Shown here: positions 30,728 to 47,662 of the stretch, in pieces | Numbering within the stretch: the first letter of the stretch is position 1 | Layout of the letters: every line of letters begins with the position of its first letter | The notes under the pieces: model-generated | Databases searched by the model: none | What the model saw: the letters and a program-made list of their open reading frames with translations, nothing else | What the model was told of the DNA's origin: nothing | Made by a program: the position numbers and the translations under genes | NCBI RefSeq assembly: GCF_000015045.1 | Contig: NC_008609.1 | Coordinates: forward strand, 3,014,001-3,078,000 | Source: Pelobacter propionicus DSM 2379 | GTDB taxonomy: Bacteria; Desulfobacterota; Desulfuromonadia; Geobacterales; Pseudopelobacteraceae | Direction: 5' to 3' | Length of the DNA stretch: 64,000 nt

Positions 30728-31267
30728 TCAGATCTTCTGCATCTTCTCGTAGATCACCAGGTCACCCGAGCCTCTGAGGTCTTCGGGATGGTACCGCGGC
30801 ATGGGGAAGTCGCTTACCTGTTTGAATTCCACCGGCGCGGTCTTCTTGTCCACAAGCCCCGCGGCTACGGCTACGCCCCAGATGATGGCTTCAGGACGCG
30901 GAGGGCAGCCGGGAACGTAGTAGTTGACCGGGATCAGTTTCTCCACCGGGCCGTGCACGGCGTAGCTGTCGTGCCAGATGCCGCCGCCGCAGGCGCAGGA
31001 GCCGATGGCAAACACAAGCTTGGGGCCGGGCATGGCGGCGTAGGCGCGCTGGAGTGCCTTGCCGGTGGAGCGCATGGCAGGCCCCTGGCAGAGCATGACG
31101 TCGGCGTGACGGGGGGAACCAACCAGTTTGATCCCGAAACGCTCTACGTCATAGTACGGGGTGAGGACGTTCAAAACTTCGATGTCGCAGCCGTTGCACC
31201 CGCCGCTGTTGGCGTGGTAAACCCACAGCGAACGACCGAACACTTTCTGGCAAAGATTCTTTAGCAT
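30728..31267 (-). CDS. [NiFe]-hydrogenase small subunit, NuoB/HyfI-type (copy A)
   Basis: 179 residues. Electron-transfer subunit next to the NiFe site, homologous to NuoB of complex I. The proximal [4Fe-4S] cluster ligands are visible as GGCNGCD (Cys24, Cys27), GSCAC (Cys91) and PGCPPRPE (Cys121). No Tat signal or medial/distal clusters, as expected for group 4 membrane-bound enzymes rather than periplasmic hydrogenases. Last gene of the operon, seven bases after the NuoI-type gene. The same product is encoded at 40646-41185. Confidence 0.9.
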   Translation of the reverse strand: MLKNLCQKVFGRSLWVYHANSGGCNGCDIEVLNVLTPYYDVERFGIKLVGSPRHADVMLCQGPAMRSTGKALQRAYAAMPGPKLVFAIGSCACGGGIWHDSYAVHGPVEKLIPVNYYVPGCPPRPEAIIWGVAVAAGLVDKKTAPVEFKQVSDFPMPRYHPEDLRGSGDLVIYEKMQKI

Positions 31268-31274: not shown

Positions 31275-31802
31275 TTAGCCCTCCAGTTCTATGGTGAGGT
31301 CTTCGAGGATCGGCTGGCCGGGGAGGTAGGCCGTTGATTTGAAGACCCAGCGGTCGTTGGCAAGGTCGTCCGCGCGGTACCCTTTCATCTTCAGCGCTTC
31401 CAGCGGTGACTGCCCCTTGAAGCAGCGGCCGCAGCGCTGGCAGGTGCTCATGAACAGTTCCAGACGCTGCTGAAGATCGGTGATCTTGTTGGTGCCGTTC
31501 TCGAACTCGTGGCTCATGGTGATGGCGTCTTCAGGGCAGACGTCGGCACAGCGACCGCAGTAGGTGCAGCGGCGGCCAAGGTAGTGCAGGATCCGGATCT
31601 CCTGGCAGATGTCGTTGATCAGGATCTCACGGGACGGGCAGTTGTTGGCGCAACCGGCGCAGCCGATGCATTTGACGTGGTCCCAGATCGGACGGCCGCG
31701 GAAGCGTTCGGGCACGGGCTTGGACTCAAAGGGGTACGGCATGGTTACCCGGCCGGCGTTCAGGCAGATCGCGGTCTCTTTCAGTTTGCTCAGTATGGAC
31801 AT
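31275..31802 (-). CDS. Two-[4Fe-4S] ferredoxin-like hydrogenase subunit, NuoI/HyfH-type (copy A)
   Basis: 175 residues. Cys45/48/51/55 (CIGCAGCANNCP) and Cys79/82/85/89 (CTYCGRCADVCP) form two classical [4Fe-4S] sites that link the electron-input module to the small subunit. A third short cluster, CQRCGRC (121-127), is extra compared with plain NuoI and may bind another centre or zinc. Peripheral membrane-arm subunit. Stop and start flank the NuoH-type gene by 13 bases. Confidence 0.9.
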   Translation of the reverse strand: MSILSKLKETAICLNAGRVTMPYPFESKPVPERFRGRPIWDHVKCIGCAGCANNCPSREILINDICQEIRILHYLGRRCTYCGRCADVCPEDAITMSHEFENGTNKITDLQQRLELFMSTCQRCGRCFKGQSPLEALKMKGYRADDLANDRWVFKSTAYLPGQPILEDLTIELEG

Positions 31803-31815: not shown

Positions 31816-32742
31816 TCAGAAGCCGTAGCTGGCGGCGGCCAGGGTTACCAGGGATACGGCCAGCATGATCGCGAAGTACCGGATGGCCTGGTCGATGCGG
31901 TAGCGGGCGTGGGTGGCGGCGATGGTGGTTACCAGAAGCACCATGGCGAAGACCTTGACCCAGAACAGGATGAAGCTGATCGGAGCGGCCAGACCGGAAC
32001 CCCAGGGGACGAACAGGGAGACAAACAGGGCGCTGTACACCACCAGTTTGGCCATGTTGGCGTACTGGAACAGGGCCAGTTTGGGACCGGAGTATTCCAC
32101 CATGGCCCCTTCCATGATCTCTGTTTCAGCTTCGGAGATGTCGAAGGGCGCACGACCCACGAAGGCCTGGAAGGCCAGCAGCATGATCACCAGCATGGCG
32201 AAGCCGGACAGCGCCATGCCGTTTGCGCCGTAGACCGAGCCGGAGAGCACTTCGTCCAGGTTGAAACTCCCCTTGGCCAGAGCGCCCATGACGATGGCGA
32301 CGGCGAACAGCGGCTCAAGGGTGATCATGCACATCATCTCGCGGTTGATGCCGATCAGAGAGTAGGTGGAGCCGGAGGCCAGGCCGGCCAGCAGGGTGCA
32401 GATGCCGGCAAGGGTCATCAGCAGGATCAAAAGCAGAACGTCGCCGGAGCCGGACAGCGGGGCCTTGAAGCCCATGGGCACCAGGCAGGCGATGGTCAGC
32501 ATGACCGCCAGGGGAAGATAGGCGGCGAAACGCTGCAGCACGGGGGCTTCACCGGATTCGATGTCGTCCTTGCCCAACAGTTTCAGGATATCCAGGTAGG
32601 GCTGGTTGATCGGAGGTCCCTGACGCGACTGGATACGGGCCGTTACCTTTCGAAGTACGCCCTGAAAGAGCGGAGCGAGCGCTAACACCAGGATGACGTT
32701 TACCAGGACGCCCACTATCATGTTCATGACGTTACTCTCCAC
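31816..32742 (-). CDS. Membrane subunit, NuoH/HyfC-type (copy A)
   Basis: 308 residues with about eight hydrophobic helices. NuoH-family blocks include ARIQSRQGPPINQPYLDILKL near residue 35 and the cytoplasmic acidic loop APFDISEAETEIMEGAMVEYSG, which connects the redox arm to ion translocation. Anchors the hydrogenase to the inner membrane. Nine bases separate it from the NuoCD-type gene before it. No sign of degeneration. Confidence 0.92.
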   Translation of the reverse strand: MESNVMNMIVGVLVNVILVLALAPLFQGVLRKVTARIQSRQGPPINQPYLDILKLLGKDDIESGEAPVLQRFAAYLPLAVMLTIACLVPMGFKAPLSGSGDVLLLILLMTLAGICTLLAGLASGSTYSLIGINREMMCMITLEPLFAVAIVMGALAKGSFNLDEVLSGSVYGANGMALSGFAMLVIMLLAFQAFVGRAPFDISEAETEIMEGAMVEYSGPKLALFQYANMAKLVVYSALFVSLFVPWGSGLAAPISFILFWVKVFAMVLLVTTIAATHARYRIDQAIRYFAIMLAVSLVTLAAASYGF

Positions 32743-32751: not shown

Positions 32752-34425
32752 CTAGCCTTTCCGTGATCTGGACAACGAGAGAAGTTCGGCTTTTGTCCAG
32801 CTCTTGCGTGCGCCGGTCCTGATGTCGATGGTTTCCATGCGGTCGGTGCAGGACATGCACGGGTCGATGCCACCTAAGGAGATCTGCATGTCGGCTATGC
32901 GCTGGTCCTTGATCATGGCCGGGATACCCTGCAGGTTCTGATAGGTCGGAGCTCGGGCACGCCAGCGACGAGGACGGTTGTCGTCACCGGTGATGGCGAA
33001 GTGGTGGCTCTCACCGCGCGGGGCTTCGATGGAGGTGTAGCCAACCCGGCCAGCAGGAAGCTCCGTGGTGATGTCCGCTACCAGCGGGCCCTGCGGCATC
33101 TTGTCAAAGCACTGGCGGATGATGTTGATCGATTCGAAGACTTCCAGCATGCGCACCACCACACGGCCCCAGACGTCGGCGGTGTTGTGGGTGATGACTT
33201 TGAAGTCCACCCGGTCGTAGGCGGCGTAGGGGTGATCACGACGGGCGTCGATGTCAACGCCGCCCCCACGGGCGACCGGACCTACCAGGCCCATCTCTTT
33301 GCACAGCGCCTTGTCGGCCATGCCGACGCCGCTGGTACGGGCCATGATGTTCTTGTCCTTGCTGACGGCGGCGACGACCTGACGCCATTCGCTCTCCAGC
33401 TTGTCAAGGACGGCGCGGGTCTCGGCGATCAGCTCAGGCGTGAAGTCCCAGCGAACGCCACCGATGATGCCAAGGCCGTAGGTCTTGCGGTTGCCGGTGA
33501 TCTTCTCGGCCAACCACATGATCGGTTCACGGATGCGCCAGGCCTGCATGAACAGGGTGTCGAAGCCCACCAGGTGGCAGGCAAGGCCGACCCACATGGG
33601 ATGGCTGTGCAGACGCTCGATCTCAAGCATGATGGTGCGGATGAATTCGGCCCGCGGAGGAACGATGACCCCGGCCCCGTTCTCTACGGCCTGACAGAAA
33701 GCCAGGCTGTGCACGCAGCCGCAGATGCCGCAGATGCGCTCGGCCATCATGGGCACGTCGTTGTAGCCAAGTACCGATTCGGACAGCTTCTCGATGCCCC
33801 GGTGGACCATGAAGCCGCGGTATTCGCAGCCACGCACGAATTCGCCATCCACGTAGAGGCGGAAGTGCTCGGGCTCGTCAAGCGTCGGATGGAACGGGCC
33901 GAAGGGGACGGCGGTGCACCCGGGAGGGGTCTCGTCGAAGTCGAACTCGCGCTCTTCGTCGTACCCTTCCGGAATCTTGTTCCAGGCAAAGTCTTTCCGT
34001 AAGGGATGGTGACCATCGGGCCAGGCGTCGGGAAGAACCAGCCGCTTCGGATAGGGGTGACCCACAGGCTCGATGCCCAACAGGTCCTTGAGTTCGCGCT
34101 CGGCCCAGTTGGCAGCGGGAATGATCCCGGAGATGCTGTCGATGCGCGGGTTCTCACCCGGAAGCTGGCAGATGATGCTGAACAGGATCTTTTCCTTGTC
34201 AAAGGCGAACTGGTGGAAGACAAGGAATTTGCCGCTGTACGGACGGTCGTCAGAGCCTATGCTGATGACGTAGCGGGCATCCATGTCGCGGAAGATGTAC
34301 TGGCAGATCGGTTTGACGCTGGCCGGGTCGATGTAGACCAACAGACGCATGTCGTTGACTACGTCGGCCTGCTGGATGGCGGAGCCGAATTTGTCTTTCA
34401 GTTGCTGGAGCTTTTTACTTACCAT
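32752..34425 (-). CDS. [NiFe]-hydrogenase large subunit, fused NuoCD/HyfG-type (copy A)
   Basis: 557 residues from the ATG at 34425, two bases after the upstream stop; the frame open to 34476 overlaps that gene. Residues ~1-170 are a NuoC-like domain, the rest a NuoD-like catalytic domain. Both nickel-binding pairs are present: RICGICG (Cys232, Cys235) and DPCMSC (Cys523, Cys526), so unlike complex I or the Cys-less Ehr-type relatives this should be a true hydrogenase. A 28-residue tail follows Arg529 of DPCMSCTDR; in HycE-like proteins such tails are cut off by a HycI-type protease after nickel insertion. Copy A has no protease gene of its own. Confidence 0.93.
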   Translation of the reverse strand: MVSKKLQQLKDKFGSAIQQADVVNDMRLLVYIDPASVKPICQYIFRDMDARYVISIGSDDRPYSGKFLVFHQFAFDKEKILFSIICQLPGENPRIDSISGIIPAANWAERELKDLLGIEPVGHPYPKRLVLPDAWPDGHHPLRKDFAWNKIPEGYDEEREFDFDETPPGCTAVPFGPFHPTLDEPEHFRLYVDGEFVRGCEYRGFMVHRGIEKLSESVLGYNDVPMMAERICGICGCVHSLAFCQAVENGAGVIVPPRAEFIRTIMLEIERLHSHPMWVGLACHLVGFDTLFMQAWRIREPIMWLAEKITGNRKTYGLGIIGGVRWDFTPELIAETRAVLDKLESEWRQVVAAVSKDKNIMARTSGVGMADKALCKEMGLVGPVARGGGVDIDARRDHPYAAYDRVDFKVITHNTADVWGRVVVRMLEVFESINIIRQCFDKMPQGPLVADITTELPAGRVGYTSIEAPRGESHHFAITGDDNRPRRWRARAPTYQNLQGIPAMIKDQRIADMQISLGGIDPCMSCTDRMETIDIRTGARKSWTKAELLSLSRSRKG

Positions 34426-34427
34426 GG

Positions 34428-36329
34428 TTAGTCTTCCTTGATGCGTGTCTGGGGACGCGGATTGCCGCCGAGCCACCCGAAGCAGCGCTTGATTTCACCG
34501 TAGAAGTTGGAGGCGGCATAACGATAGCACTCTTCTTCGCGGGCATACCCGCACAGCCAGGCGTCGCCGCTCTTGCGGGTGGAACCGCCCTGCTTGGAGA
34601 AGGTGTACACGATGACGAAGGCTACTGCCAGGACGATAGCGATAACGATCGGCACGTACAGGGCGCCGCCGCCGATGGCGAAGAGACCCGTGGTGGCGCC
34701 GGCGGACATGGTGTTGGCGTCGGCCAGTTTCTCGGCAAAGCCCTGGCGGCTGGTGTTAAGCACCTGGCCCAGAACCTGGTACACGGCGCCGGGGGCAAGG
34801 CCGATGACGATGCACAGAAGCGCCATGATCAGCTGCGGAAGCTGCTGGGTCATGCCCACTTCAAGATTCCCCTGCTTGGCGGCCTGCTGTTTGACCACCG
34901 TGCTCTGGCGGGACAAAAAGGCGACGCCGAAGAATTTGATGTACATGGCAAGCGTCATGGCGCTGGTGAGGATGGCGATGATGGCGCAGACGGCAAGGTA
35001 TTTGGCGCTCGTGCTCCCCTGGATGGTGGCGACGTAGATGCTCCATTTGCTGACAAAGCCGTTTAACAGCGGTACACCGGCGATGCCGAAGGAGGCGATC
35101 AGGACGGCAAAGCCGGTGACCGGCATGTACTTCCACAGGCCGCCCATTTTGTTTAAGTCCTGGGTGCCGGTTGCCTGGTACAGGGAGCCGGCGCTGAAGA
35201 ACAGAAGACCCTTGAAGATGCCGTGGTTGATGGCGTGAAGCAGGCCGCCGCAGAAGGCGATGGCAGCCAGAGCAAGCAGTCTGTTGTCACCGGAGGGGAC
35301 CAGGGCGACGCAGGCGCCAAGGGCAAGGATGATATAGCCCAGCTGACCGACGGAGCTGAAGGCCAGGAGCCGTTTGGTGTCGTCCTGTTTCATACCCTGC
35401 ATGGTGCCGGTGAACAGGGTGATGGTGCCCAGGATGGCCAGGGCCATGCCCCACCTGCTCATGTCGTACTGGCCAAGCACGTCGGCCGGTACCAGCCACA
35501 GGAAGGTCCTCATCAGGCCGTAGACGCCGGTCTTGCTCATGACGCCGGAGATGAGAGCGGTTACCGGGGACGGAGCAGCGGCATAGGCGTCGGGTACCCA
35601 CAGCTGACCGAAGGGCCACATGCCGACTTTAATGCCGAAGCCAACAAGGAACAGGGCCAGGCAGCCAGTGAGCGCACCCGGGTTGGTGGCGACCAGAGCC
35701 GGGATGCCTTCGGAAAGAACGTCGAAGTCGTAGGCAAGGCCAGGCTCGGCCGGGCCGCCGGCAATCATGGCGGCGCCGGCCATGGCGGCTACCATGGCGG
35801 CTTCCATGAAGACAAGGTACTTGAAGGCAGCGCCCTTGATGCCGGGCTTCTCACTCTCGAACAGCATCAGGATGAAGCTGGGGATGGTCATCAGCTGCCA
35901 GAAGGCGCAGAAGAACCACATGGTGTCGGTGATGGAGAGGATGCCGTACATGCCGCCCACGAACAGAAGCAGGAACGGATGATACATCGCCGCGCTCTTG
36001 GTGGGGAATTTCTCCACATGGACGATGGAGTACAGGGCCGCACAGACCCCGATCAGCACCGCAAGAAGCAAAAAGATGGAGCTCAGGCCGTCAACGTACA
36101 GGCGCAGCGTGTGACCACCCAGGGTGTAAAATGCCTCGGGATGGTGCGGGTTGGCAGGACCGCTGGTCAGTACCTGCACCGCCCGCGGCACGATCAAGAC
36201 ACCGCTGGCAACCATGGTCAGGAAGGAAAGCCAGCCGGACAGGCTCTTGCTCATGGAGAGCAAAAGCGTCACTACGGCACCGGCGGCGCAGATGCCGATC
36301 GATAAGAGTACTGCTTGTTCAGGAGTCAT
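34428..36329 (-). CDS. Ion-translocating membrane subunit, NuoL/HyfB-type (copy A)
   Basis: 633 residues, highly hydrophobic with 14 or more predicted helices. The antiporter-like core is recognisable from WVPDAYAAAPSPVTALISGVMSKTGVYG and KRLLAFSSVGQLGYIILALG, including the lysines and His typical of proton channels. It is the only antiporter-like subunit in the operon (no NuoM or NuoN type), as in Ech-like and short group 4 complexes. The polar C-terminus (KRCFGWLGGNPRPQTRIKED) lies in the cytoplasm. First of the five core hydrogenase genes; upstream of it in copy A only 51 bases separate it from the flavoprotein gene because the protease gene is missing. Confidence 0.9.
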   Translation of the reverse strand: MTPEQAVLLSIGICAAGAVVTLLLSMSKSLSGWLSFLTMVASGVLIVPRAVQVLTSGPANPHHPEAFYTLGGHTLRLYVDGLSSIFLLLAVLIGVCAALYSIVHVEKFPTKSAAMYHPFLLLFVGGMYGILSITDTMWFFCAFWQLMTIPSFILMLFESEKPGIKGAAFKYLVFMEAAMVAAMAGAAMIAGGPAEPGLAYDFDVLSEGIPALVATNPGALTGCLALFLVGFGIKVGMWPFGQLWVPDAYAAAPSPVTALISGVMSKTGVYGLMRTFLWLVPADVLGQYDMSRWGMALAILGTITLFTGTMQGMKQDDTKRLLAFSSVGQLGYIILALGACVALVPSGDNRLLALAAIAFCGGLLHAINHGIFKGLLFFSAGSLYQATGTQDLNKMGGLWKYMPVTGFAVLIASFGIAGVPLLNGFVSKWSIYVATIQGSTSAKYLAVCAIIAILTSAMTLAMYIKFFGVAFLSRQSTVVKQQAAKQGNLEVGMTQQLPQLIMALLCIVIGLAPGAVYQVLGQVLNTSRQGFAEKLADANTMSAGATTGLFAIGGGALYVPIVIAIVLAVAFVIVYTFSKQGGSTRKSGDAWLCGYAREEECYRYAASNFYGEIKRCFGWLGGNPRPQTRIKED

Positions 36330-36380: not shown

Positions 36381-37229
36381 TTAGATATCTTCCCCGAGCG
36401 TTTTCAGCTGTTCGTAGGTAAATACCGGGCCGTCGACGCAGACGTAGGAGACACCCACGCAGCAGTGGCCGCATTTGCCAACGCCGCATTTCATGTAGCG
36501 CTCCAGGGTCGAGACGATGTTGCTCTCCTTGAAGCCAAGGTCCAGGAGGTCCTTGATGACGAAGCGGAACATGATCGGCGGACCGCACACGAACGCTACC
36601 GTGTTGTCCACGTTCACCGTGACGCCAGGTTTCTTGAACAGGGAGCCGACCACGCCCACGTTACCGGTGTAACCGGGGCTGGCGCTGTCAACGGTGAGAT
36701 AGAATTCCGCCCCACCCTTCTCCCAGACCTTCAGGTCTTCGGCGTACATCAGCGTCTCGGGGTTCTTGGCGCCGTAGAAGATCTGCACGCTCTTGAACTT
36801 GTCACGGTTGGCAAGGATATAGACGATGGTGGAACGCAGCGGGATCAGGCCGATACCGCCGGCGACGACGACGATGTTCTTGCCGTAGTACGATTCCATG
36901 GGGAAGCCGTTGCCAAAGGGACCTCTCAGCGCGAAACGGTCGCCCGGCTTGTACTCCTGGAAGGCGTTGGAGCAGACCCCTACCCTTCTCAAGGTGAAGA
37001 AGACTTTACCTTCAGTGGGAGAAGGCGGAAGCGAGAGGGTGAATTCGCCCTTGCCCGGGATGGTGACCAGGCAGAACATGCCAGGACCGAAGGTCGAAAG
37101 AAACTGTTTCTGATCCTCGGGGTTCTCCAGGTGCCAATGAACCGTTTTGACTTCCGGGATCTCGTCGTTCAAGGCGTCGACGATGGCGACCTTCGGCAGA
37201 TAGATGTTATCAGCGGGTGATTGGTTCAT
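36381..37229 (-). CDS. FAD/NAD(P)-binding 2Fe-2S reductase subunit, sulfhydrogenase-gamma-like (copy A)
   Basis: 282 residues. Ferredoxin-NADP-reductase fold: GDRFALRGPFGNGFP binds FAD, VVVAGGIGLIPLRS and AFVCGPPIMFRFV bind NAD(P). The C-terminus CGVGKCGHCCVG … C is the [2Fe-2S] motif of dihydroorotate-dehydrogenase electron-transfer subunits and HydG of archaeal sulfhydrogenase. Likely exchanges electrons with NAD(P)H and passes them to the 4Fe-4S protein encoded next, whose start overlaps this region (ATGA at 37226-37229). Copy B differs only by one silent base. Confidence 0.85.
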   Translation of the reverse strand: MNQSPADNIYLPKVAIVDALNDEIPEVKTVHWHLENPEDQKQFLSTFGPGMFCLVTIPGKGEFTLSLPPSPTEGKVFFTLRRVGVCSNAFQEYKPGDRFALRGPFGNGFPMESYYGKNIVVVAGGIGLIPLRSTIVYILANRDKFKSVQIFYGAKNPETLMYAEDLKVWEKGGAEFYLTVDSASPGYTGNVGVVGSLFKKPGVTVNVDNTVAFVCGPPIMFRFVIKDLLDLGFKESNIVSTLERYMKCGVGKCGHCCVGVSYVCVDGPVFTYEQLKTLGEDI

Positions 37230-38308
37230 TGCTTGTCACTCTCCGTTGTGGCGCGGCGGATCATTTCCACGACGCTCGGCATTCCTATGTCGCCGTGGCA
37301 GACCACGGCGCAGCGACCGCAGCCGATACAGGCGACCGACAGCTCGCGCTGGATGAAGTAGTGGTGCAGTTTCCGGAAGAAACGACGGTTGCGACGGTCA
37401 TGCACGGCCTGGCGCGGGTTGTGGCCACCGGCCATTCTCGTAAAGCCGCTGAAGGCGCAGGCGTCCCACACTTTCAAGCGCTCGATCTCCGTCGGACCGA
37501 TCTTACGGTCGGTGACGGTGAAACAGGTGCAGGCGGGGCAGACAAAGGTGCAGCCACCGCATTCGACACAGCGGTTGCCGATCTCGGTCCAGGTCTTGTT
37601 GCTTACCCGGTTGCCGGTGACGTAGCGTACGGCACCGGAGAACCAGGTGGTGGCGTCTTTCAGCTCTGTGCGGGCCGCTTCCAGCACTTCGGCCCGTTTC
37701 GTTACGTGGCCAGCCGTGCACTTCTTGTAGAAGGGGGCCGCAAACAGTGCCTCGCCCGCCGGACTGCCGGCTACGGCCATGTATTCGTCGTTGCCCAGGT
37801 CCATGAGCTGAAGGTCGAAGTTCTCACGGGCGGCAGGGCCGGAGTCGGTGCACAGGCAGAAGCACTGCTTGCCTATGTCCAGGTCCTTGTCCGTGCAGGC
37901 GAAGTTGACGATGAACAGGTTGTTCCGTTTCGCCTCGTGGTAGCCATCCTTGAAGTCACGCCCCAGGAAGAAGCGGTCCAGGTGGTAGATGCCACGCACG
38001 TCGCAGGAGCGCACGCCGAACAGGGCGCGCTTGGGAGCGTCCACGGTGGGCTCGAAGCTCAGGCTGTTCTTGGATTTGTCTTCGTGAATCTTCATGGTCC
38101 GTTCCATGTGCGGGAACACGAACCGTTTGGCCGGATAGTAGGGGTTGGGAACGTGCAACTGGACCTGGTCCCGGTTGGCGTCGGTGACTACGTCAAAGGC
38201 GCTGTCGCTACCGCGACCGAGGAAGGGGGCCAGGACCTCAAAGCCCTGTCCGCGCAGCTGATCGATTACGTTCAGCACATCGGCGCGGCTCAAGATACGT
38301 GCTTTCAT
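37226..38308 (-). CDS. 4Fe-4S electron-transfer subunit, sulfhydrogenase-beta-like (copy A)
   Basis: 360 residues. Resembles HydB of sulfhydrogenase and the A subunit of anaerobic sulfite reductase. The N-terminal ~210 residues include FGVRSCDVRGIYHLDRFF and a Cys group QCFCLCTDSGPAA; the C-terminal half has CVECGGCTFVCPACTC (~250) and CIGCGRCAVVCHGDIG (~331), two [4Fe-4S] sites. Overlaps its neighbours by four bases on each side (stop 37226-37228 against start 37229; start 38308 against stop 38305), so all three input-module proteins are translationally coupled. Confidence 0.85.
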   Translation of the reverse strand: MKARILSRADVLNVIDQLRGQGFEVLAPFLGRGSDSAFDVVTDANRDQVQLHVPNPYYPAKRFVFPHMERTMKIHEDKSKNSLSFEPTVDAPKRALFGVRSCDVRGIYHLDRFFLGRDFKDGYHEAKRNNLFIVNFACTDKDLDIGKQCFCLCTDSGPAARENFDLQLMDLGNDEYMAVAGSPAGEALFAAPFYKKCTAGHVTKRAEVLEAARTELKDATTWFSGAVRYVTGNRVSNKTWTEIGNRCVECGGCTFVCPACTCFTVTDRKIGPTEIERLKVWDACAFSGFTRMAGGHNPRQAVHDRRNRRFFRKLHHYFIQRELSVACIGCGRCAVVCHGDIGMPSVVEMIRRATTESDKQ

Positions 38309-40311
38309 GCGACCTCCGTTTCTACACGAACAGCCAGGAACCGGGCGTCATCCGCACCGCGCATCGCCTGCATCTGGCTCAGCTCCTGGTAGGGTACAAA
38401 TACCGTGCCCCGCTTGACCTCGGGGGTGACGCGGGCAACGGTTACGGCGCAGCCGGAGCCGCCGCAGAGTTTGATCTTCTGCTTGTCCCGGATCTTCATC
38501 TCCTTGGCGTCGTCAGCATTGATCTCGACGAACCCTTGCGGATAGTCCAGGAGCATTACCCGGTATTCACGCTTTAAGATCTCGCTGTGGGCGATGAGGA
38601 CGTTCTGGTTCCAGTAGTAGCTGGAGTTGCCCAGTACCAGGGTGAAGGGGAAGTCCGTGCTTAAGGCGGCGGGAGCCGAAGGCTTGGCGACCGGTACAAA
38701 TTTGAAGCTGCCGGAACCGCCGCTAAACAGGATCGGCGTGCCGTGGGGCGCGTCCTTGGTGCAGGGCCACTGACGGCCGAATTCAACACCCAGGCTGTCG
38801 TAGTCGGCGGCGCTGTAGGAAGGTACGGCCCGGCCGATCTCGGCCATGACCGCTGCCGCGTCGGCATAGTTCCAGTCACTTCCCAGTGCCTTGGCCACCT
38901 GGGCGATCTGCTGCCAGGCAGGGGTGATCCCCTGAGGCGCAGGAACGGCCTGGCGGGCGAGCTGGATGCGACGCTCGGTGCTGGTGAAGCTGACCGTCTC
39001 TTCACCGAAGGCGGTGGTGGGAAGGACGACGTCGGCCAGTTTGGCGGTTTCAGTCAAAAACAGGTGCTGGACGATGACCAGCTCGCACTCTTCCAAAGCC
39101 TTGGCGGCGCTGCCCAGGGCGGCGGTGTTGACCGGGTCGTAACGGTCCAGCCAGACCGCCTTGATTTTACCCTTGGCACGGTCTTTCAGCACGGCTGCGG
39201 CCGTTACGCCGGGGGTAGCCGGAAGCTTGGCGCCATACACGCTTTCAAGCTCGCTCCCCGCGGAGAGCGGACGGTAGCCGGGAAGGCGGTCGGGAAGCAT
39301 GCCCATGTCGCAGGTGCCCTGAAGGTTGTTGTGTTCGGCCAGCGGGAAGATGCCAGAGCCGACTTTGCCGATCTGGCCGGCCAGAAGCGCCAGGTTGACG
39401 GCCGCCCTGATGGAGTCGGAGTCACGGGTCTCGGCGCCGGTGGAGTACAGGATGGCCGAGGATTTTGATTTGGCGTAGGCTACGGCTACGGCTTCGATCT
39501 GTTCGGCAGGAACGCCGCAGGTCTGGGCGGCGGCGATCAGGTCGTACTGCTTGGCCTGGGCCAGAAAGGCATCGTAGTCAGAACAGTTGGCCTTGATGAA
39601 GGCAAGGTCCATCAGGCCGTGGTCCACGATCAGTTTGGCCATGGCGCCGTAGAGAACGGCTTCCGTGCCCGGGTTGATCTGCAGAAACCAGTCGGCGTTC
39701 TCGGCAACACGCTGACGACGCTCGCCGATGACCACCAGCTTGGCGCCGCTGAGTCTGGCGCGCAGCACCGTGCCCGCTACGGTGGGAAGCTGACGGGCAA
39801 GGTCAACGCCGTCGACGATGATCAGGTCGCTCTGCTCCAGGTCGTCGATGGAGTTGGTGGCGGCGGCAACACCCAGCATGTCCAGAAGGACGTTGACCGA
39901 GTTGTTGCTGTACACGCCGGCGCCATGGTCCACGTTGTTGGTGCCGATGACGCTGCGCGCAAGCTTCTGAAGAAGGTAGCTCTCTTCGTTGCAGCAACGC
40001 GGAGAGTTCAGAAAGGCGATCGAGTCGGGACCGGAGGCGCCCTTGATCTCCTTCAGACGTGAGGCGATGAACTCATACGCCTCCTGCCACGTCACTTCTT
40101 CGAGCTGGCCGTTCTTCCTGAGAAGCGGTGCCTTCAGGCGGTCGGGGGAGCTGGCAACTTCATGAACGTGCCAGCCGCGGATGCAGATTTTGCCCTTGTT
40201 TGCGGGGTGCGATACGCTGGGGTAGACGCCAGCAATGCGTTCAGGAGTAGTCTCAAGATAGAGACCACACCCTACGCCGCAAAAGGTGCAGGTGGTTAGA
40301 CTTTGAGCCAT
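38305..40311 (-). CDS. Molybdopterin-oxidoreductase-family subunit lacking formate dehydrogenase catalytic residues (copy A)
   Basis: 668 residues, close to the length of FdhF. The N-terminal [4Fe-4S] motif CTFCGVGC … KICIRG is intact and the whole protein aligns with formate dehydrogenase H (for example GTNNVD near 123-128, NNLQGTCDMG near 328-337). At the catalytic positions it differs: the Sec/Cys of FdhF aligns without gaps to Tyr134, the next His to Ser135, and the conserved Arg to Ala325. It should therefore not oxidise formate in the usual way; it may act as an electron relay like NuoG or on another substrate. First gene of the operon. Annotation as formate dehydrogenase would be misleading. 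Confidence 0.85.
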   Translation of the reverse strand: MAQSLTTCTFCGVGCGLYLETTPERIAGVYPSVSHPANKGKICIRGWHVHEVASSPDRLKAPLLRKNGQLEEVTWQEAYEFIASRLKEIKGASGPDSIAFLNSPRCCNEESYLLQKLARSVIGTNNVDHGAGVYSNNSVNVLLDMLGVAAATNSIDDLEQSDLIIVDGVDLARQLPTVAGTVLRARLSGAKLVVIGERRQRVAENADWFLQINPGTEAVLYGAMAKLIVDHGLMDLAFIKANCSDYDAFLAQAKQYDLIAAAQTCGVPAEQIEAVAVAYAKSKSSAILYSTGAETRDSDSIRAAVNLALLAGQIGKVGSGIFPLAEHNNLQGTCDMGMLPDRLPGYRPLSAGSELESVYGAKLPATPGVTAAAVLKDRAKGKIKAVWLDRYDPVNTAALGSAAKALEECELVIVQHLFLTETAKLADVVLPTTAFGEETVSFTSTERRIQLARQAVPAPQGITPAWQQIAQVAKALGSDWNYADAAAVMAEIGRAVPSYSAADYDSLGVEFGRQWPCTKDAPHGTPILFSGGSGSFKFVPVAKPSAPAALSTDFPFTLVLGNSSYYWNQNVLIAHSEILKREYRVMLLDYPQGFVEINADDAKEMKIRDKQKIKLCGGSGCAVTVARVTPEVKRGTVFVPYQELSQMQAMRGADDARFLAVRVETEVA

Positions 40312-40626: not shown

Positions 40627-40645
40627 CCGGGATGTAACGTTCCGG

Positions 40646-41185
40646 TCAGATCTTCTGCATCTTCTCGTAGATCACCAGGTCACCCGAGCCTCTGAGGTCT
40701 TCGGGATGGTACCGCGGCATGGGGAAGTCGCTTACCTGTTTGAATTCCACCGGCGCGGTCTTCTTGTCCACAAGCCCCGCGGCTACGGCTACGCCCCAGA
40801 TGATGGCTTCAGGACGCGGAGGGCAGCCGGGAACGTAGTAGTTGACCGGGATCAGTTTCTCCACCGGGCCGTGCACGGCGTAGCTGTCGTGCCAGATGCC
40901 GCCGCCGCAGGCGCAGGAGCCGATGGCAAACACAAGCTTGGGGCCGGGCATGGCGGCGTAGGCGCGCTGGAGTGCCTTGCCGGTGGAGCGCATGGCAGGC
41001 CCCTGGCAGAGCATGACGTCGGCGTGACGGGGGGAACCAACCAGTTTGATCCCGAAACGCTCTACGTCATAGTACGGGGTGAGGACGTTCAAAACTTCGA
41101 TGTCGCAGCCGTTGCACCCGCCGCTGTTGGCGTGGTAAACCCACAGCGAACGACCGAACACTTTCTGGCAAAGATTCTTTAGCAT
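40646..41185 (-). CDS. [NiFe]-hydrogenase small subunit, NuoB/HyfI-type (copy B)
   Basis: Protein identical to the product of 30728-31267 (179 residues, Cys24/27/91/121 for the proximal cluster). Terminal gene of the copy B operon. Confidence 0.9.
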   Translation of the reverse strand: MLKNLCQKVFGRSLWVYHANSGGCNGCDIEVLNVLTPYYDVERFGIKLVGSPRHADVMLCQGPAMRSTGKALQRAYAAMPGPKLVFAIGSCACGGGIWHDSYAVHGPVEKLIPVNYYVPGCPPRPEAIIWGVAVAAGLVDKKTAPVEFKQVSDFPMPRYHPEDLRGSGDLVIYEKMQKI

Positions 41186-41192
41186 GACGGCG

Positions 41193-41720
41193 TTAGCCCT
41201 CCAGTTCTATGGTGAGGTCTTCGAGGATCGGCTGGCCGGGGAGGTAGGCCGTTGATTTGAAGACCCAGCGGTCGTTGGCAAGGTCGTCCGCGCGGTACCC
41301 TTTCATCTTCAGCGCTTCCAGCGGTGACTGCCCCTTGAAGCAGCGGCCGCAGCGCTGGCAGGTGCTCATGAACAGTTCCAGACGCTGCTGAAGATCGGTG
41401 ATCTTGTTGGTGCCGTTCTCGAACTCGTGGCTCATGGTGATGGCGTCTTCAGGGCAGACGTCGGCACAGCGACCGCAGTAGGTGCAGCGGCGGCCAAGGT
41501 AGTGCAGGATCCGGATCTCCTGGCAGATGTCGTTGATCAGGATCTCACGGGACGGGCAGTTGTTGGCGCAACCGGCGCAGCCGATGCATTTGACGTGGTC
41601 CCAGATCGGACGGCCGCGGAAGCGTTCGGGCACGGGCTTGGACTCAAAGGGGTACGGCATGGTTACCCGGCCGGCGTTCAGGCAGATCGCGGTCTCTTTC
41701 AGTTTGCTCAGTATGGACAT
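41193..41720 (-). CDS. Two-[4Fe-4S] ferredoxin-like hydrogenase subunit, NuoI/HyfH-type (copy B)
   Basis: Protein identical to 31275-31802, with the two [4Fe-4S] sites and the extra CQRCGRC group. Spacing to both neighbours is the same as in copy A. Confidence 0.9.
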   Translation of the reverse strand: MSILSKLKETAICLNAGRVTMPYPFESKPVPERFRGRPIWDHVKCIGCAGCANNCPSREILINDICQEIRILHYLGRRCTYCGRCADVCPEDAITMSHEFENGTNKITDLQQRLELFMSTCQRCGRCFKGQSPLEALKMKGYRADDLANDRWVFKSTAYLPGQPILEDLTIELEG

Positions 41721-41733: not shown

Positions 41734-42660
41734 TCAGAAGCCGTAGCTGGCGGCGGCCAGGGTTACCAGGGATACGGCCAGCATGATCGCGAAGTACCGG
41801 ATGGCCTGGTCGATGCGGTAGCGGGCGTGGGTGGCGGCGATGGTGGTTACCAGAAGCACCATGGCGAAGACCTTGACCCAGAACAGGATGAAGCTGATCG
41901 GAGCGGCCAGACCGGAACCCCAGGGGACGAACAGGGAGACAAACAGGGCGCTGTACACCACCAGTTTGGCCATGTTGGCGTACTGGAACAGGGCCAGTTT
42001 GGGACCGGAGTATTCCACCATGGCCCCTTCCATGATCTCTGTTTCAGCTTCGGAGATGTCGAAGGGCGCACGACCCACGAAGGCCTGGAAGGCCAGCAGC
42101 ATGATCACCAGCATGGCGAAGCCGGACAGCGCCATGCCGTTTGCGCCGTAGACCGAGCCGGAGAGCACTTCGTCCAGGTTGAAACTCCCCTTGGCCAGAG
42201 CGCCCATGACGATGGCGACGGCGAACAGCGGCTCAAGGGTGATCATGCACATCATCTCGCGGTTGATGCCGATCAGAGAGTAGGTGGAGCCGGAGGCCAG
42301 GCCGGCCAGCAGGGTGCAGATGCCGGCAAGGGTCATCAGCAGGATCAAAAGCAGAACGTCGCCGGAGCCGGACAGCGGGGCCTTGAAGCCCATGGGCACC
42401 AGGCAGGCGATGGTCAGCATGACCGCCAGGGGAAGATAGGCGGCGAAACGCTGCAGCACGGGGGCTTCACCGGATTCGATGTCGTCCTTGCCCAACAGTT
42501 TCAGGATATCCAGGTAGGGCTGGTTGATCGGAGGTCCCTGACGCGACTGGATACGGGCCGTTACCTTTCGAAGTACGCCCTGAAAGAGCGGAGCGAGCGC
42601 TAACACCAGGATGACGTTTACCAGGACGCCCACTATCATGTTCATGACGTTACTCTCCAC
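41734..42660 (-). CDS. Membrane subunit, NuoH/HyfC-type (copy B)
   Basis: Protein identical to 31816-32742. No substitution seen along the gene. Confidence 0.92.
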   Translation of the reverse strand: MESNVMNMIVGVLVNVILVLALAPLFQGVLRKVTARIQSRQGPPINQPYLDILKLLGKDDIESGEAPVLQRFAAYLPLAVMLTIACLVPMGFKAPLSGSGDVLLLILLMTLAGICTLLAGLASGSTYSLIGINREMMCMITLEPLFAVAIVMGALAKGSFNLDEVLSGSVYGANGMALSGFAMLVIMLLAFQAFVGRAPFDISEAETEIMEGAMVEYSGPKLALFQYANMAKLVVYSALFVSLFVPWGSGLAAPISFILFWVKVFAMVLLVTTIAATHARYRIDQAIRYFAIMLAVSLVTLAAASYGF

Positions 42661-42669: not shown

Positions 42670-44343
42670 CTAGCCTTTCCGTGATCTGGACAACGAGAGA
42701 AGTTCGGCTTTTGTCCAGCTCTTGCGTGCGCCGGTCCTGATGTCGATGGTTTCCATGCGGTCGGTGCAGGACATGCACGGGTCGATGCCACCTAAGGAGA
42801 TCTGCATGTCGGCTATGCGCTGGTCCTTGATCATGGCCGGGATACCCTGCAGGTTCTGATAGGTCGGAGCTCGGGCACGCCAGCGACGAGGACGGTTGTC
42901 GTCACCGGTGATGGCGAAGTGGTGGCTCTCACCGCGCGGGGCTTCGATGGAGGTGTAGCCAACCCGGCCAGCAGGAAGCTCCGTGGTGATGTCCGCTACC
43001 AGCGGGCCCTGCGGCATCTTGTCAAAGCACTGGCGGATGATGTTGATCGATTCGAAGACTTCCAGCATGCGCACCACCACACGGCCCCAGACGTCGGCGG
43101 TGTTGTGGGTGATGACTTTGAAGTCCACCCGGTCGTAGGCGGCGTAGGGGTGATCACGACGGGCGTCGATGTCAACGCCGCCCCCACGGGCGACCGGACC
43201 TACCAGGCCCATCTCTTTGCACAGCGCCTTGTCGGCCATGCCGACGCCGCTGGTACGGGCCATGATGTTCTTGTCCTTGCTGACGGCGGCGACGACCTGA
43301 CGCCATTCGCTCTCCAGCTTGTCAAGGACGGCGCGGGTCTCGGCGATCAGCTCAGGCGTGAAGTCCCAGCGAACGCCACCGATGATGCCAAGGCCGTAGG
43401 TCTTGCGGTTGCCGGTGATCTTCTCGGCCAACCACATGATCGGTTCACGGATGCGCCAGGCCTGCATGAACAGGGTGTCGAAGCCCACCAGGTGGCAGGC
43501 AAGGCCGACCCACATGGGATGGCTGTGCAGACGCTCGATCTCAAGCATGATGGTGCGGATGAATTCGGCCCGCGGAGGAACGATGACCCCGGCCCCGTTC
43601 TCTACGGCCTGACAGAAAGCCAGGCTGTGCACGCAGCCGCAGATGCCGCAGATGCGCTCGGCCATCATGGGCACGTCGTTGTAGCCAAGTACCGATTCGG
43701 ACAGCTTCTCGATGCCCCGGTGGACCATGAAGCCGCGGTATTCGCAGCCACGCACGAATTCGCCATCCACGTAGAGGCGGAAGTGCTCGGGCTCGTCAAG
43801 CGTCGGATGGAACGGGCCGAAGGGGACGGCGGTGCACCCGGGAGGGGTCTCGTCGAAGTCGAACTCGCGCTCTTCGTCGTACCCTTCCGGAATCTTGTTC
43901 CAGGCAAAGTCTTTCCGTAAGGGATGGTGACCATCGGGCCAGGCGTCGGGAAGAACCAGCCGCTTCGGATAGGGGTGACCCACAGGCTCGATGCCCAACA
44001 GGTCCTTGAGTTCGCGCTCGGCCCAGTTGGCAGCGGGAATGATCCCGGAGATGCTGTCGATGCGCGGGTTCTCACCCGGAAGCTGGCAGATGATGCTGAA
44101 CAGGATCTTTTCCTTGTCAAAGGCGAACTGGTGGAAGACAAGGAATTTGCCGCTGTACGGACGGTCGTCAGAGCCTATGCTGATGACGTAGCGGGCATCC
44201 ATGTCGCGGAAGATGTACTGGCAGATCGGTTTGACGCTGGCCGGGTCGATGTAGACCAACAGACGCATGTCGTTGACTACGTCGGCCTGCTGGATGGCGG
44301 AGCCGAATTTGTCTTTCAGTTGCTGGAGCTTTTTACTTACCAT
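42670..44343 (-). CDS. [NiFe]-hydrogenase large subunit, fused NuoCD/HyfG-type (copy B)
   Basis: Protein identical to 32752-34425, with Cys232/235 and Cys523/526 and the 28-residue C-terminal tail after Arg529. Here the likely processing enzyme is encoded in the same operon at 46308-46811. Confidence 0.93.
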   Translation of the reverse strand: MVSKKLQQLKDKFGSAIQQADVVNDMRLLVYIDPASVKPICQYIFRDMDARYVISIGSDDRPYSGKFLVFHQFAFDKEKILFSIICQLPGENPRIDSISGIIPAANWAERELKDLLGIEPVGHPYPKRLVLPDAWPDGHHPLRKDFAWNKIPEGYDEEREFDFDETPPGCTAVPFGPFHPTLDEPEHFRLYVDGEFVRGCEYRGFMVHRGIEKLSESVLGYNDVPMMAERICGICGCVHSLAFCQAVENGAGVIVPPRAEFIRTIMLEIERLHSHPMWVGLACHLVGFDTLFMQAWRIREPIMWLAEKITGNRKTYGLGIIGGVRWDFTPELIAETRAVLDKLESEWRQVVAAVSKDKNIMARTSGVGMADKALCKEMGLVGPVARGGGVDIDARRDHPYAAYDRVDFKVITHNTADVWGRVVVRMLEVFESINIIRQCFDKMPQGPLVADITTELPAGRVGYTSIEAPRGESHHFAITGDDNRPRRWRARAPTYQNLQGIPAMIKDQRIADMQISLGGIDPCMSCTDRMETIDIRTGARKSWTKAELLSLSRSRKG

Positions 44344-44345
44344 GG

Positions 44346-46247
44346 TTAGTCTTCCTTGATGCGTGTCTGGGGACGCGGATTGCCGCCGAGCCACCCGAAG
44401 CAGCGCTTGATTTCACCGTAGAAGTTGGAGGCGGCATAACGATAGCACTCTTCTTCGCGGGCATACCCGCACAGCCAGGCGTCGCCGCTCTTGCGGGTGG
44501 AACCGCCCTGCTTGGAGAAGGTGTACACGATGACGAAGGCTACTGCCAGGACGATAGCGATAACGATCGGCACGTACAGGGCGCCGCCGCCGATGGCGAA
44601 GAGACCCGTGGTGGCGCCGGCGGACATGGTGTTGGCGTCGGCCAGTTTCTCGGCAAAGCCCTGGCGGCTGGTGTTAAGCACCTGGCCCAGAACCTGGTAC
44701 ACGGCGCCGGGGGCAAGGCCGATGACGATGCACAGAAGCGCCATGATCAGCTGCGGAAGCTGCTGGGTCATGCCCACTTCAAGATTCCCCTGCTTGGCGG
44801 CCTGCTGTTTGACCACCGTGCTCTGGCGGGACAAAAAGGCGACGCCGAAGAATTTGATGTACATGGCAAGCGTCATGGCGCTGGTGAGGATGGCGATGAT
44901 GGCGCAGACGGCAAGGTATTTGGCGCTCGTGCTCCCCTGGATGGTGGCGACGTAGATGCTCCATTTGCTGACAAAGCCGTTTAACAGCGGTACACCGGCG
45001 ATGCCGAAGGAGGCGATCAGGACGGCAAAGCCGGTGACCGGCATGTACTTCCACAGGCCGCCCATTTTGTTTAAGTCCTGGGTGCCGGTTGCCTGGTACA
45101 GGGAGCCGGCGCTGAAGAACAGAAGACCCTTGAAGATGCCGTGGTTGATGGCGTGAAGCAGGCCGCCGCAGAAGGCGATGGCAGCCAGAGCAAGCAGTCT
45201 GTTGTCACCGGAGGGGACCAGGGCGACGCAGGCGCCAAGGGCAAGGATGATATAGCCCAGCTGACCGACGGAGCTGAAGGCCAGGAGCCGTTTGGTGTCG
45301 TCCTGTTTCATACCCTGCATGGTGCCGGTGAACAGGGTGATGGTGCCCAGGATGGCCAGGGCCATGCCCCACCTGCTCATGTCGTACTGGCCAAGCACGT
45401 CGGCCGGTACCAGCCACAGGAAGGTCCTCATCAGGCCGTAGACGCCGGTCTTGCTCATGACGCCGGAGATGAGAGCGGTTACCGGGGACGGAGCAGCGGC
45501 ATAGGCGTCGGGTACCCACAGCTGACCGAAGGGCCACATGCCGACTTTAATGCCGAAGCCAACAAGGAACAGGGCCAGGCAGCCAGTGAGCGCACCCGGG
45601 TTGGTGGCGACCAGAGCCGGGATGCCTTCGGAAAGAACGTCGAAGTCGTAGGCAAGGCCAGGCTCGGCCGGGCCGCCGGCAATCATGGCGGCGCCGGCCA
45701 TGGCGGCTACCATGGCGGCTTCCATGAAGACAAGGTACTTGAAGGCAGCGCCCTTGATGCCGGGCTTCTCACTCTCGAACAGCATCAGGATGAAGCTGGG
45801 GATGGTCATCAGCTGCCAGAAGGCGCAGAAGAACCACATGGTGTCGGTGATGGAGAGGATGCCGTACATGCCGCCCACGAACAGAAGCAGGAACGGATGA
45901 TACATCGCCGCGCTCTTGGTGGGGAATTTCTCCACATGGACGATGGAGTACAGGGCCGCACAGACCCCGATCAGCACCGCAAGAAGCAAAAAGATGGAGC
46001 TCAGGCCGTCAACGTACAGGCGCAGCGTGTGACCACCCAGGGTGTAAAATGCCTCGGGATGGTGCGGGTTGGCAGGACCGCTGGTCAGTACCTGCACCGC
46101 CCGCGGCACGATCAAGACACCGCTGGCAACCATGGTCAGGAAGGAAAGCCAGCCGGACAGGCTCTTGCTCATGGAGAGCAAAAGCGTCACTACGGCACCG
46201 GCGGCGCAGATGCCGATCGATAAGAGTACTGCTTGTTCAGGAGTCAT
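44346..46247 (-). CDS. Ion-translocating membrane subunit, NuoL/HyfB-type (copy B)
   Basis: Protein identical to 34428-36329. Starts 60 bases after the protease stop. Confidence 0.9.
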   Translation of the reverse strand: MTPEQAVLLSIGICAAGAVVTLLLSMSKSLSGWLSFLTMVASGVLIVPRAVQVLTSGPANPHHPEAFYTLGGHTLRLYVDGLSSIFLLLAVLIGVCAALYSIVHVEKFPTKSAAMYHPFLLLFVGGMYGILSITDTMWFFCAFWQLMTIPSFILMLFESEKPGIKGAAFKYLVFMEAAMVAAMAGAAMIAGGPAEPGLAYDFDVLSEGIPALVATNPGALTGCLALFLVGFGIKVGMWPFGQLWVPDAYAAAPSPVTALISGVMSKTGVYGLMRTFLWLVPADVLGQYDMSRWGMALAILGTITLFTGTMQGMKQDDTKRLLAFSSVGQLGYIILALGACVALVPSGDNRLLALAAIAFCGGLLHAINHGIFKGLLFFSAGSLYQATGTQDLNKMGGLWKYMPVTGFAVLIASFGIAGVPLLNGFVSKWSIYVATIQGSTSAKYLAVCAIIAILTSAMTLAMYIKFFGVAFLSRQSTVVKQQAAKQGNLEVGMTQQLPQLIMALLCIVIGLAPGAVYQVLGQVLNTSRQGFAEKLADANTMSAGATTGLFAIGGGALYVPIVIAIVLAVAFVIVYTFSKQGGSTRKSGDAWLCGYAREEECYRYAASNFYGEIKRCFGWLGGNPRPQTRIKED

Positions 46248-46307: not shown

Positions 46308-46811
46308 CTAACCGTTGTCCGTTTCTTCACACCAAATGTCGCTCAGCAACTCCTCGAGGATGTCAAGCGTATCCTGTACTGTTGGTGAAACGCCCTGCCC
46401 CATCTTCAATGATTCAGGCTGAACACCGATCAACCAGGCTTTCGTTGTCCCGCTGGCCTCAATCCAGTTAGCCAGCATACCTAACGAAATTTTGTGTGTA
46501 GATATCTGAGGGAACCTTGATGCCATTTCCTCGCTGTTCGCTACAAGCACAGCACCAGGTTCGCCGCCAAAGTCTACTGCGTCGAGAAAGACCAGGGAGT
46601 CGTACCCCTCGTCGGCTATACGACCGGTATAGCGTTCCGGCATGGTGCCGGCATCGATAACGACCGGAGCATTGGCACGCTTTGCCAAGTTTTGTTCGAG
46701 TTTCTCGGCAAGACGAATGCCGAAACCATCATCACCGTAATCCGTGCTGCCAACGCCCATAAAACAGACACGACCACGGGTGCATTCACGAAGTTCTTTA
46801 AGGAGGTCCAA
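46308..46811 (-). CDS. Hydrogenase maturation protease, HycI/HyaD family (M52)
   Basis: 167 residues from a TTG at 46811, two bases after the flavoprotein stop; the frame is open further upstream but only as a shadow of that gene. HycI-like pattern: CFMGVGSTDYGDDGFGIRLAE near residues 16-36, VVIDAGTMPE (~50-59), LVFLDAVDFGGEPG and ISTHKISL. The three nickel-sensing residues of the family correspond to Asp28 (or 27), Asp77 and His106, all present. The enzyme would cut the 28-residue tail of the NuoCD-type large subunit after Arg529. It is unique to copy B, so it presumably serves both copies. No upstream ribosome site is obvious; translation may be coupled to the gene before it. Confidence 0.9.
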   Translation of the reverse strand: MDLLKELRECTRGRVCFMGVGSTDYGDDGFGIRLAEKLEQNLAKRANAPVVIDAGTMPERYTGRIADEGYDSLVFLDAVDFGGEPGAVLVANSEEMASRFPQISTHKISLGMLANWIEASGTTKAWLIGVQPESLKMGQGVSPTVQDTLDILEELLSDIWCEETDNG

Positions 46812-46813: not shown

Positions 46814-47662
46814 TTAGATATCTTCCCCGAGCGTTTTCAGCTGTTCGTAGGTAAATACCGGGCCGTCGACGCAGACGTAGGAGACACCCACGCAGCAGTG
46901 GCCGCATTTGCCAACGCCGCATTTCATGTAGCGCTCCAGGGTCGAGACGATGTTGCTCTCCTTGAAGCCAAGGTCCAGGAGGTCCTTGATGACGAAGCGG
47001 AACATGATCGGCGGACCGCACACGAACGCTACCGTGTTGTCCACGTTCACCGTGACGCCAGGTTTCTTGAACAGGGAGCCGACCACGCCCACGTTGCCGG
47101 TGTAACCGGGGCTGGCGCTGTCAACGGTGAGATAGAATTCCGCCCCACCCTTCTCCCAGACCTTCAGGTCTTCGGCGTACATCAGCGTCTCGGGGTTCTT
47201 GGCGCCGTAGAAGATCTGCACGCTCTTGAACTTGTCACGGTTGGCAAGGATATAGACGATGGTGGAACGCAGCGGGATCAGGCCGATACCGCCGGCGACG
47301 ACGACGATGTTCTTGCCGTAGTACGATTCCATGGGGAAGCCGTTGCCAAAGGGACCTCTCAGCGCGAAACGGTCGCCCGGCTTGTACTCCTGGAAGGCGT
47401 TGGAGCAGACCCCTACCCTTCTCAAGGTGAAGAAGACTTTACCTTCAGTGGGAGAAGGCGGAAGCGAGAGGGTGAATTCGCCCTTGCCCGGGATGGTGAC
47501 CAGGCAGAACATGCCAGGACCGAAGGTCGAAAGAAACTGTTTCTGATCCTCGGGGTTCTCCAGGTGCCAATGAACCGTTTTGACTTCCGGGATCTCGTCG
47601 TTCAAGGCGTCGACGATGGCGACCTTCGGCAGATAGATGTTATCAGCGGGTGATTGGTTCAT
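46814..47662 (-). CDS. FAD/NAD(P)-binding 2Fe-2S reductase subunit, sulfhydrogenase-gamma-like (copy B)
   Basis: Protein identical to 36381-37229; the gene carries the only substitution noticed between the copies (G at 47096, silent). Directly followed by the protease gene, which copy A lacks. Confidence 0.85.
   Translation of the reverse strand: MNQSPADNIYLPKVAIVDALNDEIPEVKTVHWHLENPEDQKQFLSTFGPGMFCLVTIPGKGEFTLSLPPSPTEGKVFFTLRRVGVCSNAFQEYKPGDRFALRGPFGNGFPMESYYGKNIVVVAGGIGLIPLRSTIVYILANRDKFKSVQIFYGAKNPETLMYAEDLKVWEKGGAEFYLTVDSASPGYTGNVGVVGSLFKKPGVTVNVDNTVAFVCGPPIMFRFVIKDLLDLGFKESNIVSTLERYMKCGVGKCGHCCVGVSYVCVDGPVFTYEQLKTLGEDI

Follow-up and report, generated by a model that had tools for sequence, protein, structure and literature searches.

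Two identical proteins encoded in a 64,000-nt stretch of Pelobacter propionicus DSM 2379 (contig NC_008609.1, positions 3,014,001 to 3,078,000; hereafter the window) resemble the catalytic subunit of formate dehydrogenase (FDH) and have lost all three of its catalytic residues. Each gene heads a cluster that appears to encode a [NiFe] hydrogenase like that of formate hydrogenlyase (FHL) together with an NAD(P)H module. The reading we favor, at a probability of roughly two in three (0.68), is that this FdhA-like subunit has the FDH fold without formate chemistry, and serves as a connector, either scaffold or electron relay or both, in an NAD(P)H-linked, FHL-like membrane hydrogenase of group 4.

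Loss of the catalytic residues in the FdhA-like subunit

The two genes lie on the minus strand at 38305..40311 and 48738..50744, and each encodes 668 aa with matches to PF04879, PF00384 and PF01568. An earlier note on this DNA had proposed that the first protein carries Tyr134, Ser135 and Ala325 in place of the selenocysteine (Sec), His and Arg of FdhF, that its [4Fe-4S] cysteines are kept, and that the second copy is alike. All three points held when we aligned the subunit to FdhF of E. coli MG1655, whose gene has an in-frame TGA at codon 140. In both copies Sec140, His141 and Arg333 of FdhF are replaced by Tyr134, Ser135 and Ala325 (copy 1 codons at 39910..39912, 39907..39909 and 39337..39339, minus strand). 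There were zero gaps against FdhF from the GTNNVD motif to Tyr134/Ser135, and HMMER alignments to three solved FDHs gave the same three replacements and were likewise gap-free around Tyr134/Ser135. The four [4Fe-4S] ligands, C8, C11, C15 and C43, are all present (40183..40290, minus strand). Among FDH controls, Cys/Sec-His-Arg occupied positions 140, 141 and 333 (FdhF numbering, used below for these sites) in 59/59. This set excludes L095, which is partial, and L091, which has Glu at 140 and with which the Cys/Sec count becomes 59/60; L028-L032 were set apart as NuoG-like. The latter, 870-913 aa open reading frames of the host family with Gly at 140, Phe or Tyr at 141 and Asp at 333, are another FDH-fold lineage without the catalytic triad.

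No tRNA-Sec scored above the Rfam cut-off in the P. propionicus genome, so a hidden recoded Sec in the subunit can be set aside. Judged by its residues, the subunit is very unlikely to carry out formate chemistry. The earlier note also expected the protein to be annotated as an FDH, which was half right: the score against the NCBIfam FDH-alpha model TIGR01591 was 547.9 bits, below the cut-off of 666.25, and thus the curated model would not call it an FDH. We agree with the note that a formate hydrogenlyase reading misleads, the catalytic FDH residues being gone; such clusters would otherwise pass for formate hydrogenlyase.

A clade that shares the loss

We scanned a collection of 84,980 species genomes and found 34 loci, 6 of them distant (30-37% identical to the window protein) and 28 close (L062-L088 and L092; 53-65% identical). 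The genomes of the close loci are labeled as six phyla, mostly Verrucomicrobiota, with Acidobacteriota, Omnitrophota, Methylomirabilota, Lentisphaerota and Armatimonadota. Whether the Tyr is a conserved feature of the clade had been raised in the earlier note, and it is: position 140 is Tyr in 24 of the 28 loci, Phe in 3 and His in 1, with Cys or Sec in 0/28. Position 333 is Thr in 20, Ala in 6, Ser in 1 and Cys in 1, with Arg in 0/28. Position 141 is Cys in 19, Ser in 5 and Arg in 4, and this variation means that its Cys is not a conserved metal ligand. Lys44 of FdhF has become Arg in 27/28 loci, the 28th being frameshifted. The four cluster cysteines are present in every intact full-length orthologue (26/26), and in 27/28 loci when the partial L086 is included, the exception being the frameshifted L092. 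Clade counts given below over 27 rows drop these two window-clade rows.

In the tree, a branch with support 100 sets the clade off from the other sequences, and it includes the window protein, whose neighbors are Armatimonadota and Verrucomicrobiota sequences. A search of 76 genomes of the host family (75 besides the host) found no close orthologue, the best other match being 39% identical. The same was true of 395 genomes of the host phylum, in which at most 3 candidates were scored per genome and identity among the matches listed was at most 39%. Samples of the phylum of L062, one of 288 genomes and a second, overlapping one of 145, each returned an orthologue only in the genome already known (1/288 in the first). 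Such single or absent matches in family and phylum samples indicate a scattered and rare clade. The position among other phyla, together with the absence from 75 other family genomes, makes it likely that the gene reached Pelobacter by gene transfer. Viral contigs held no match to the subunit. Intermediates, with the Cys kept in the same gene cluster, were sought among 32 loci and none was seen; 6 of these loci proved to belong to the clade, and Cys/Sec-His and Arg333 are present in the remaining 26, each less than 40% identical.

Loss of the triad goes with linkage to the hydrogenase

In the window the gene next to that of the FdhA-like subunit encodes an iron-sulfur protein, HydB. We sought HydB homologues in 247 genomes of the host phylum and read the best 56 of well over 150 listed places, with about 8 kb of flank each, or less where the contig stopped; the sample was drawn best-scoring first and is hence non-random, and more distant hydrogenase genes would escape it. 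Where FdhA adjoined HydB and the hydrogenase large subunit, NuoCD, was absent from the flanks, Cys/Sec-His-Arg was kept in 11/11 (L150, L153-L157, L161, L162, L165, L166 and L177). Live FdhA-HydB-HydG modules persist in the host phylum for comparison. Where an FdhA-like gene and NuoCD occurred together, the triad was lost in 6/6, with Gly, Ser or Ala at the ligand position: Gly-His at 140/141 and Ala at 333 in L149, Gly-Ala and Ser in L151 and L152, Ser-Gly and Ser in L158 and L160, and Ala-Gly and Ser in L159. The change of Lys44 to Arg is common to all six proteins and the clade.

Pooling the two samples, the triad was lost in 31/31 hydrogenase-linked loci (25 from the clade and 6 from the census) as well as in both window copies. 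These loci are related lineages and the six census cases amount to few events, and we attach no probability to the count. The residue at the ligand position differs between the hydrogenase-linked lineages (Tyr/Phe/His, Gly, Ser or Ala), as expected if a metal is no longer bound there. One place, L170, was set aside: its FdhA, with Cys-His-Arg, is 7 kb away on the other strand, and beside HydB there is an odd relative with Cys-Tyr and Pro333. Other census places had no FdhA-like match of more than 300 residues. In-frame TAG codons considered in the HydB matches turned out to be the gene end.

The hydrogenase and NAD(P)H-module gene cluster

The window holds the cluster twice, as a 9.7-kb tandem duplication in which each unit is headed by the FdhA-like gene. 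All genes are on the minus strand, and coordinates are given for copy 1 and then copy 2. The FdhA-like gene is followed by a HydB/AsrA-like iron-sulfur subunit (37226..38308; 47659..48741), a HydG/AsrB-like FAD/NAD(P)H subunit (36381..37229; 46814..47662), in copy 2 only a HycI-type hydrogenase maturation protease (46308..46799, start approximate, the listed open reading frame reaching 47021), an antiporter-like membrane subunit of the NuoL/HyfB type (34428..36329; 44346..46247), the HycE-like [NiFe] large subunit, a NuoC+D fusion (NuoCD; 32752..34476; 42670..44394), a NuoH/HycD-like membrane subunit (31816..32742; 41734..42660), a NuoI/HycF-like subunit with two [4Fe-4S] clusters and an extra CxxCxxC (31275..31802; 41193..41720) and a NuoB/HycG-like small subunit (30728..31267; 40646..41185). 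Adjoining the cluster are hypB, for nickel insertion (29330..30160, minus strand), and a gene that we take to be hypA-like (30165..30503, minus strand).

The arrangement is conserved. The FdhA-like gene, HydB, HydG and NuoCD stand in a single run in 25/28 clade loci, with HycI recognizable in most, and the remaining three (L068, L082 and L086) run into contig edges. The ligands of the other centers are intact as well: the Ni-ligand motifs CGICG and DPC[FM]SC, with their four Cys, were found in 25/25 large subunits (CGIC and DPCMSC in copy 1), 16 of the 17 HydB Cys are kept in 28/28 aligned sequences, and the NAD(P)-binding and [2Fe-2S] motifs of HydG are kept in 25/25; these counts take in the window's own sequence. 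The nearest solved relative of the large subunit is FHL subunit 5 (E 3.9e-125), and those of the HydB- and HydG-like subunits are sulfhydrogenase 1 beta and gamma. With all genes of the window unit accounted for, there is no HycB-type linker among them, and HydB stands in its place. Of the HycF-type Cys quartet, a possible mark of FHL-like docking, NuoI has the first CxxC, together with a third Cys, and lacks the second pair of E. coli HycF. From these motifs the cluster would encode a group 4 [NiFe] hydrogenase resembling that of FHL, plus an NAD(P)H module of sulfhydrogenase type, both of which look intact, and the FDH site looks to be the sole site lost.

The two units are nearly identical, with 100% identity between 30652-36380 and 40570-46298 and 2 mismatches between 36377-40392 and 46810-50825. 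HycI, placed in copy 2 between HydG and NuoL, is missing from copy 1 through a clean loss of about 511 bp (36377-36380 against 46299-46809), the remainder being 99.95-100% identical to copy 2. Since most related loci carry hycI in that same place, it was most likely lost from copy 1, whose maturation would then depend on the HycI of copy 2.

Proposed role as a connector

The electron chain that we propose rests on homology. Electrons would pass between NAD(P)H and the FAD and [2Fe-2S] cluster of HydG, between HydG and the clusters of HydB, and between HydB and the NuoI/NuoB clusters, either directly or via the single [4Fe-4S] cluster of the FdhA-like subunit. From the NuoI/NuoB clusters they would exchange with the Ni-Fe site of NuoCD, making or using H2, and ion movement through NuoH and NuoL may be coupled to this Ni-Fe electron flow. 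The FdhA-like subunit would be what remains of the catalytic subunit in a former FdhA-HydB-HydG formate:NAD(P) module. It would no longer hold a working Mo/W site and would keep its old place on HydB within a single complex, as docking scaffold and/or relay, like NuoG in complex I.

The earlier note had offered a NuoG-like relay as one possibility. A NuoG-like role does fit best, given that the triad is lost where the subunit is linked to the membrane hydrogenase and an NAD(P)H module; we keep both relay and scaffold in play. That the same loss occurs in every hydrogenase-linked relative examined suggests that an FDH subunit found a second use as a connector, a course resembling that of respiratory complex I. 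There is a precedent for the missing activity in StnC, which is annotated as an FDH, has the FDH fold and was reported not to oxidize formate (PMC7483475).

Several points weigh against this interpretation. In FHL, the FDH lies at the far end of the relay (PMC9474812), and with FHL-like docking electrons that reached the cluster of the FdhA-like subunit could go no further, which makes a relay less sure than a scaffold. Within the clade, conservation is higher in the old active-site loops than elsewhere in the protein (0.866 against 0.751; P 0.0011 from random draws, the columns not being independent), and at each of 26 FDH-invariant positions a single new residue has taken over, present in at least 95% of the clade. 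All pterin-binding domains are kept, including the C-terminal one, unlike in a freely decaying subunit. More broadly, out of 173 columns at least 90% conserved in FDHs, 103 were kept and 70 changed in the clade, and the changed columns were slightly more conserved within it than the remaining ones (0.775 against 0.713, P 0.008). Conservation of this kind in the old loops argues that the region has not been neglected and has a function, whether in packing, in docking or as a remodeled cofactor pocket.

Alternative explanations

A remodeled pocket of that last kind is unlikely in our estimate. It would still bind a pterin, either as Mo/W-bis-pterin or free of metal, would have Tyr or no residue at the metal, and would serve another reaction or act as a pterin redox relay. 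Such a pocket would account for the conserved loops with their 26 switched positions, for the Tyr in 23/27 full rows and for the retention of NNxQG and R204, and arsenite oxidase is active without an amino-acid ligand (PMC10100899). The predicted fold is also that of a whole FDH, with 639-654 residues aligned to FdhF over nearly the full length (TMq 0.88 to 1fdi; Z 40.5 with 639 residues aligned to 1aa6). However, no single ligand or substrate residue is conserved, with Phe or His also found at 140, Cys, Ser or Arg at 141, and Thr, Ala, Ser or Cys at 333. The FdhF residues D478, M297 and Q301, which we take to bind the molybdopterin guanine dinucleotide, fare no better: D478 is Ala or Ser in 27/27, M297 is lost in 27/27, and Q301 falls in a clade-wide gap. 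Tyr, moreover, is not among the ligands in the table excerpted from PMC10100899. The AlphaFold model (predicted local distance difference test, pLDDT, 84; predicted TM-score, pTM, 0.87) is weak at 131-133, 330-332 and 512-533, and these weak loops make it uninformative on pterin fit. A bolder version, in which the pterin guanine dinucleotide (PGD) pocket was re-tooled, with Tyr or no residue at the metal, as a relay or for a non-formate substrate and coupled to an ion-pumping, NAD(P)H-linked hydrogenase, strikes us as a longer shot. If true, it would be, to our knowledge, the first Tyr-type member of the Mo/W-bis-PGD superfamily; the excerpted ligand table of PMC10100899 lists none. Apart from these questions, C243 and C265 (FdhF 249 and 271, Thr in more than 90% of FDHs) are Cys in 27/27 clade members, and a disulfide or metal site is possible.

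A purely structural relic, a scaffold with no electrons passing through its cluster, like the off-pathway cluster N7 of complex I, is also rather unlikely. It draws on the FHL structure, in which the FDH cluster comes last in the chain and overlaps N7 of Nqo3 (PMC9474812). Against it, no intact full-length orthologue has lost any of the four cluster Cys, a degree of conservation that a scaffold would not need. This is a weak argument, because N7 itself is kept in many complex I enzymes.

A genuine FDH that uses the neighboring residue, position 135, as ligand is highly improbable, for although Cys occupies FdhF position 141 in 19/28 orthologues and pLDDT below 50 at 131-133 would leave room for a loop shift, this residue is Ser in the window protein and Arg in other members, both His141 and Arg333 are gone too, and the alignment is gap-free on both sides.

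Comparison with known systems

The connector that we favor can be set against several known enzymes. E. coli FdhF and FHL-1 (Hyc) share with it the subunit fold (Z about 40), the hydrogenase core, the Ni ligands and a HycI-type protease, and the window large subunit is 38% identical to HycE. Unlike FHL-1, the window cluster lacks Sec140, His141 and Arg333 and has HydB and HydG instead of a HycB gene. NuoG/Nqo3 is likewise an FDH fold that keeps a [4Fe-4S] cluster and lacks the triad, and it too has an NAD(P)H module on one side and a complex I-like core on the other. In Geobacteraceae NuoG-like proteins, position 140 is Gly and position 333 is Asp. Unlike NuoG, the FdhA-like subunit starts at the Fe4S4 domain, with no N-terminal ferredoxin-like extension; it scored 132.2 bits against TIGR01973 (cut-off 470.05), with a profile match only from position 213. 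Electrons would also end on Ni-Fe and not, as in complex I, on quinone. Pyrococcus sulfhydrogenase 1 (HydBG), a soluble group 3b enzyme without FDH-like or membrane subunits, is, through its beta and gamma subunits, the closest among solved structures to the HydB- and HydG-like subunits, but the window subunits fall short of the NCBIfam cut-offs.

The NfnABC structure 9bov matches the model of the FdhA-like subunit with Z 31.6 over 489 aligned residues. StnABC and NfnABC differ in that they are bifurcating transhydrogenases with NuoE/NuoF-like partners and no hydrogenase core (PMC7483475). Non-catalytic members of the superfamily are known, including FhcB, Nqo3 and ActB (PMC10100899). On a common origin of the loss with NuoG, two trees disagree. 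In a tree with NapA, FdnG and NuoG, the clade was separate from NuoG (support 97); when six further site-less proteins were added and E. coli NuoG was removed, all site-less groups joined (support 99). Long branches may attract in both trees.

In the literature searched, as listings and excerpts, no paper described these catalytic losses in such a complex. The nearest, from 2019, reports in Saganbacteria RX5A the genes of an unclassified, enigmatic group 4 hydrogenase with antiporter-like subunits, asrA, asrB and a molybdopterin oxidoreductase not identifiable as an FDH, with relatives in Omnitrophica (PMC6349859). It differs in mentioning CooF, and its excerpted text does not give active-site residues; likened by description and not by sequence, the RX5A complex is probably of the same or a sister kind. 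What is new here is that the loss is resolved to residues, is fixed in a clade that spans several phyla and occurs together with hydrogenase linkage.

The origin of NuoG, the FDH-fold subunit of complex I without formate chemistry, is debated (PMC9474812). The present system would be another setting in which the catalytic residues disappeared from an FDH subunit that is linked to a complex I-like hydrogenase and an NAD(P)H module. It occurs mostly in uncultured genomes of the six labeled phyla and in one culturable species, which makes it testable.

Other loci

At L189 (G195:C4) of the census, HydB and HydG stand beside three NuoL-type antiporter genes, and FdhA-like and NuoCD genes were not found in the 16.8 kb covered.

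The HycE-like genes of L151, L152, L158, L159 and L160, in Desulfobacterota-type genomes (G086, G159, G084, G232 and G254, respectively), have in-frame TGA codons. These stand at the Ni-ligand cysteines 249 (5/5) and 252 (4/5) of the N-terminal CGIC, while the C-terminal DPCFSC is intact. All five genomes have a tRNA-Sec above the Rfam cut-off, and a 7-bp hairpin lies 3' of the TGA codons in 5/5 folds of 75 bases. On these sequence features, the five loci point to a group 4 hydrogenase in which two Ni ligands are selenocysteine.

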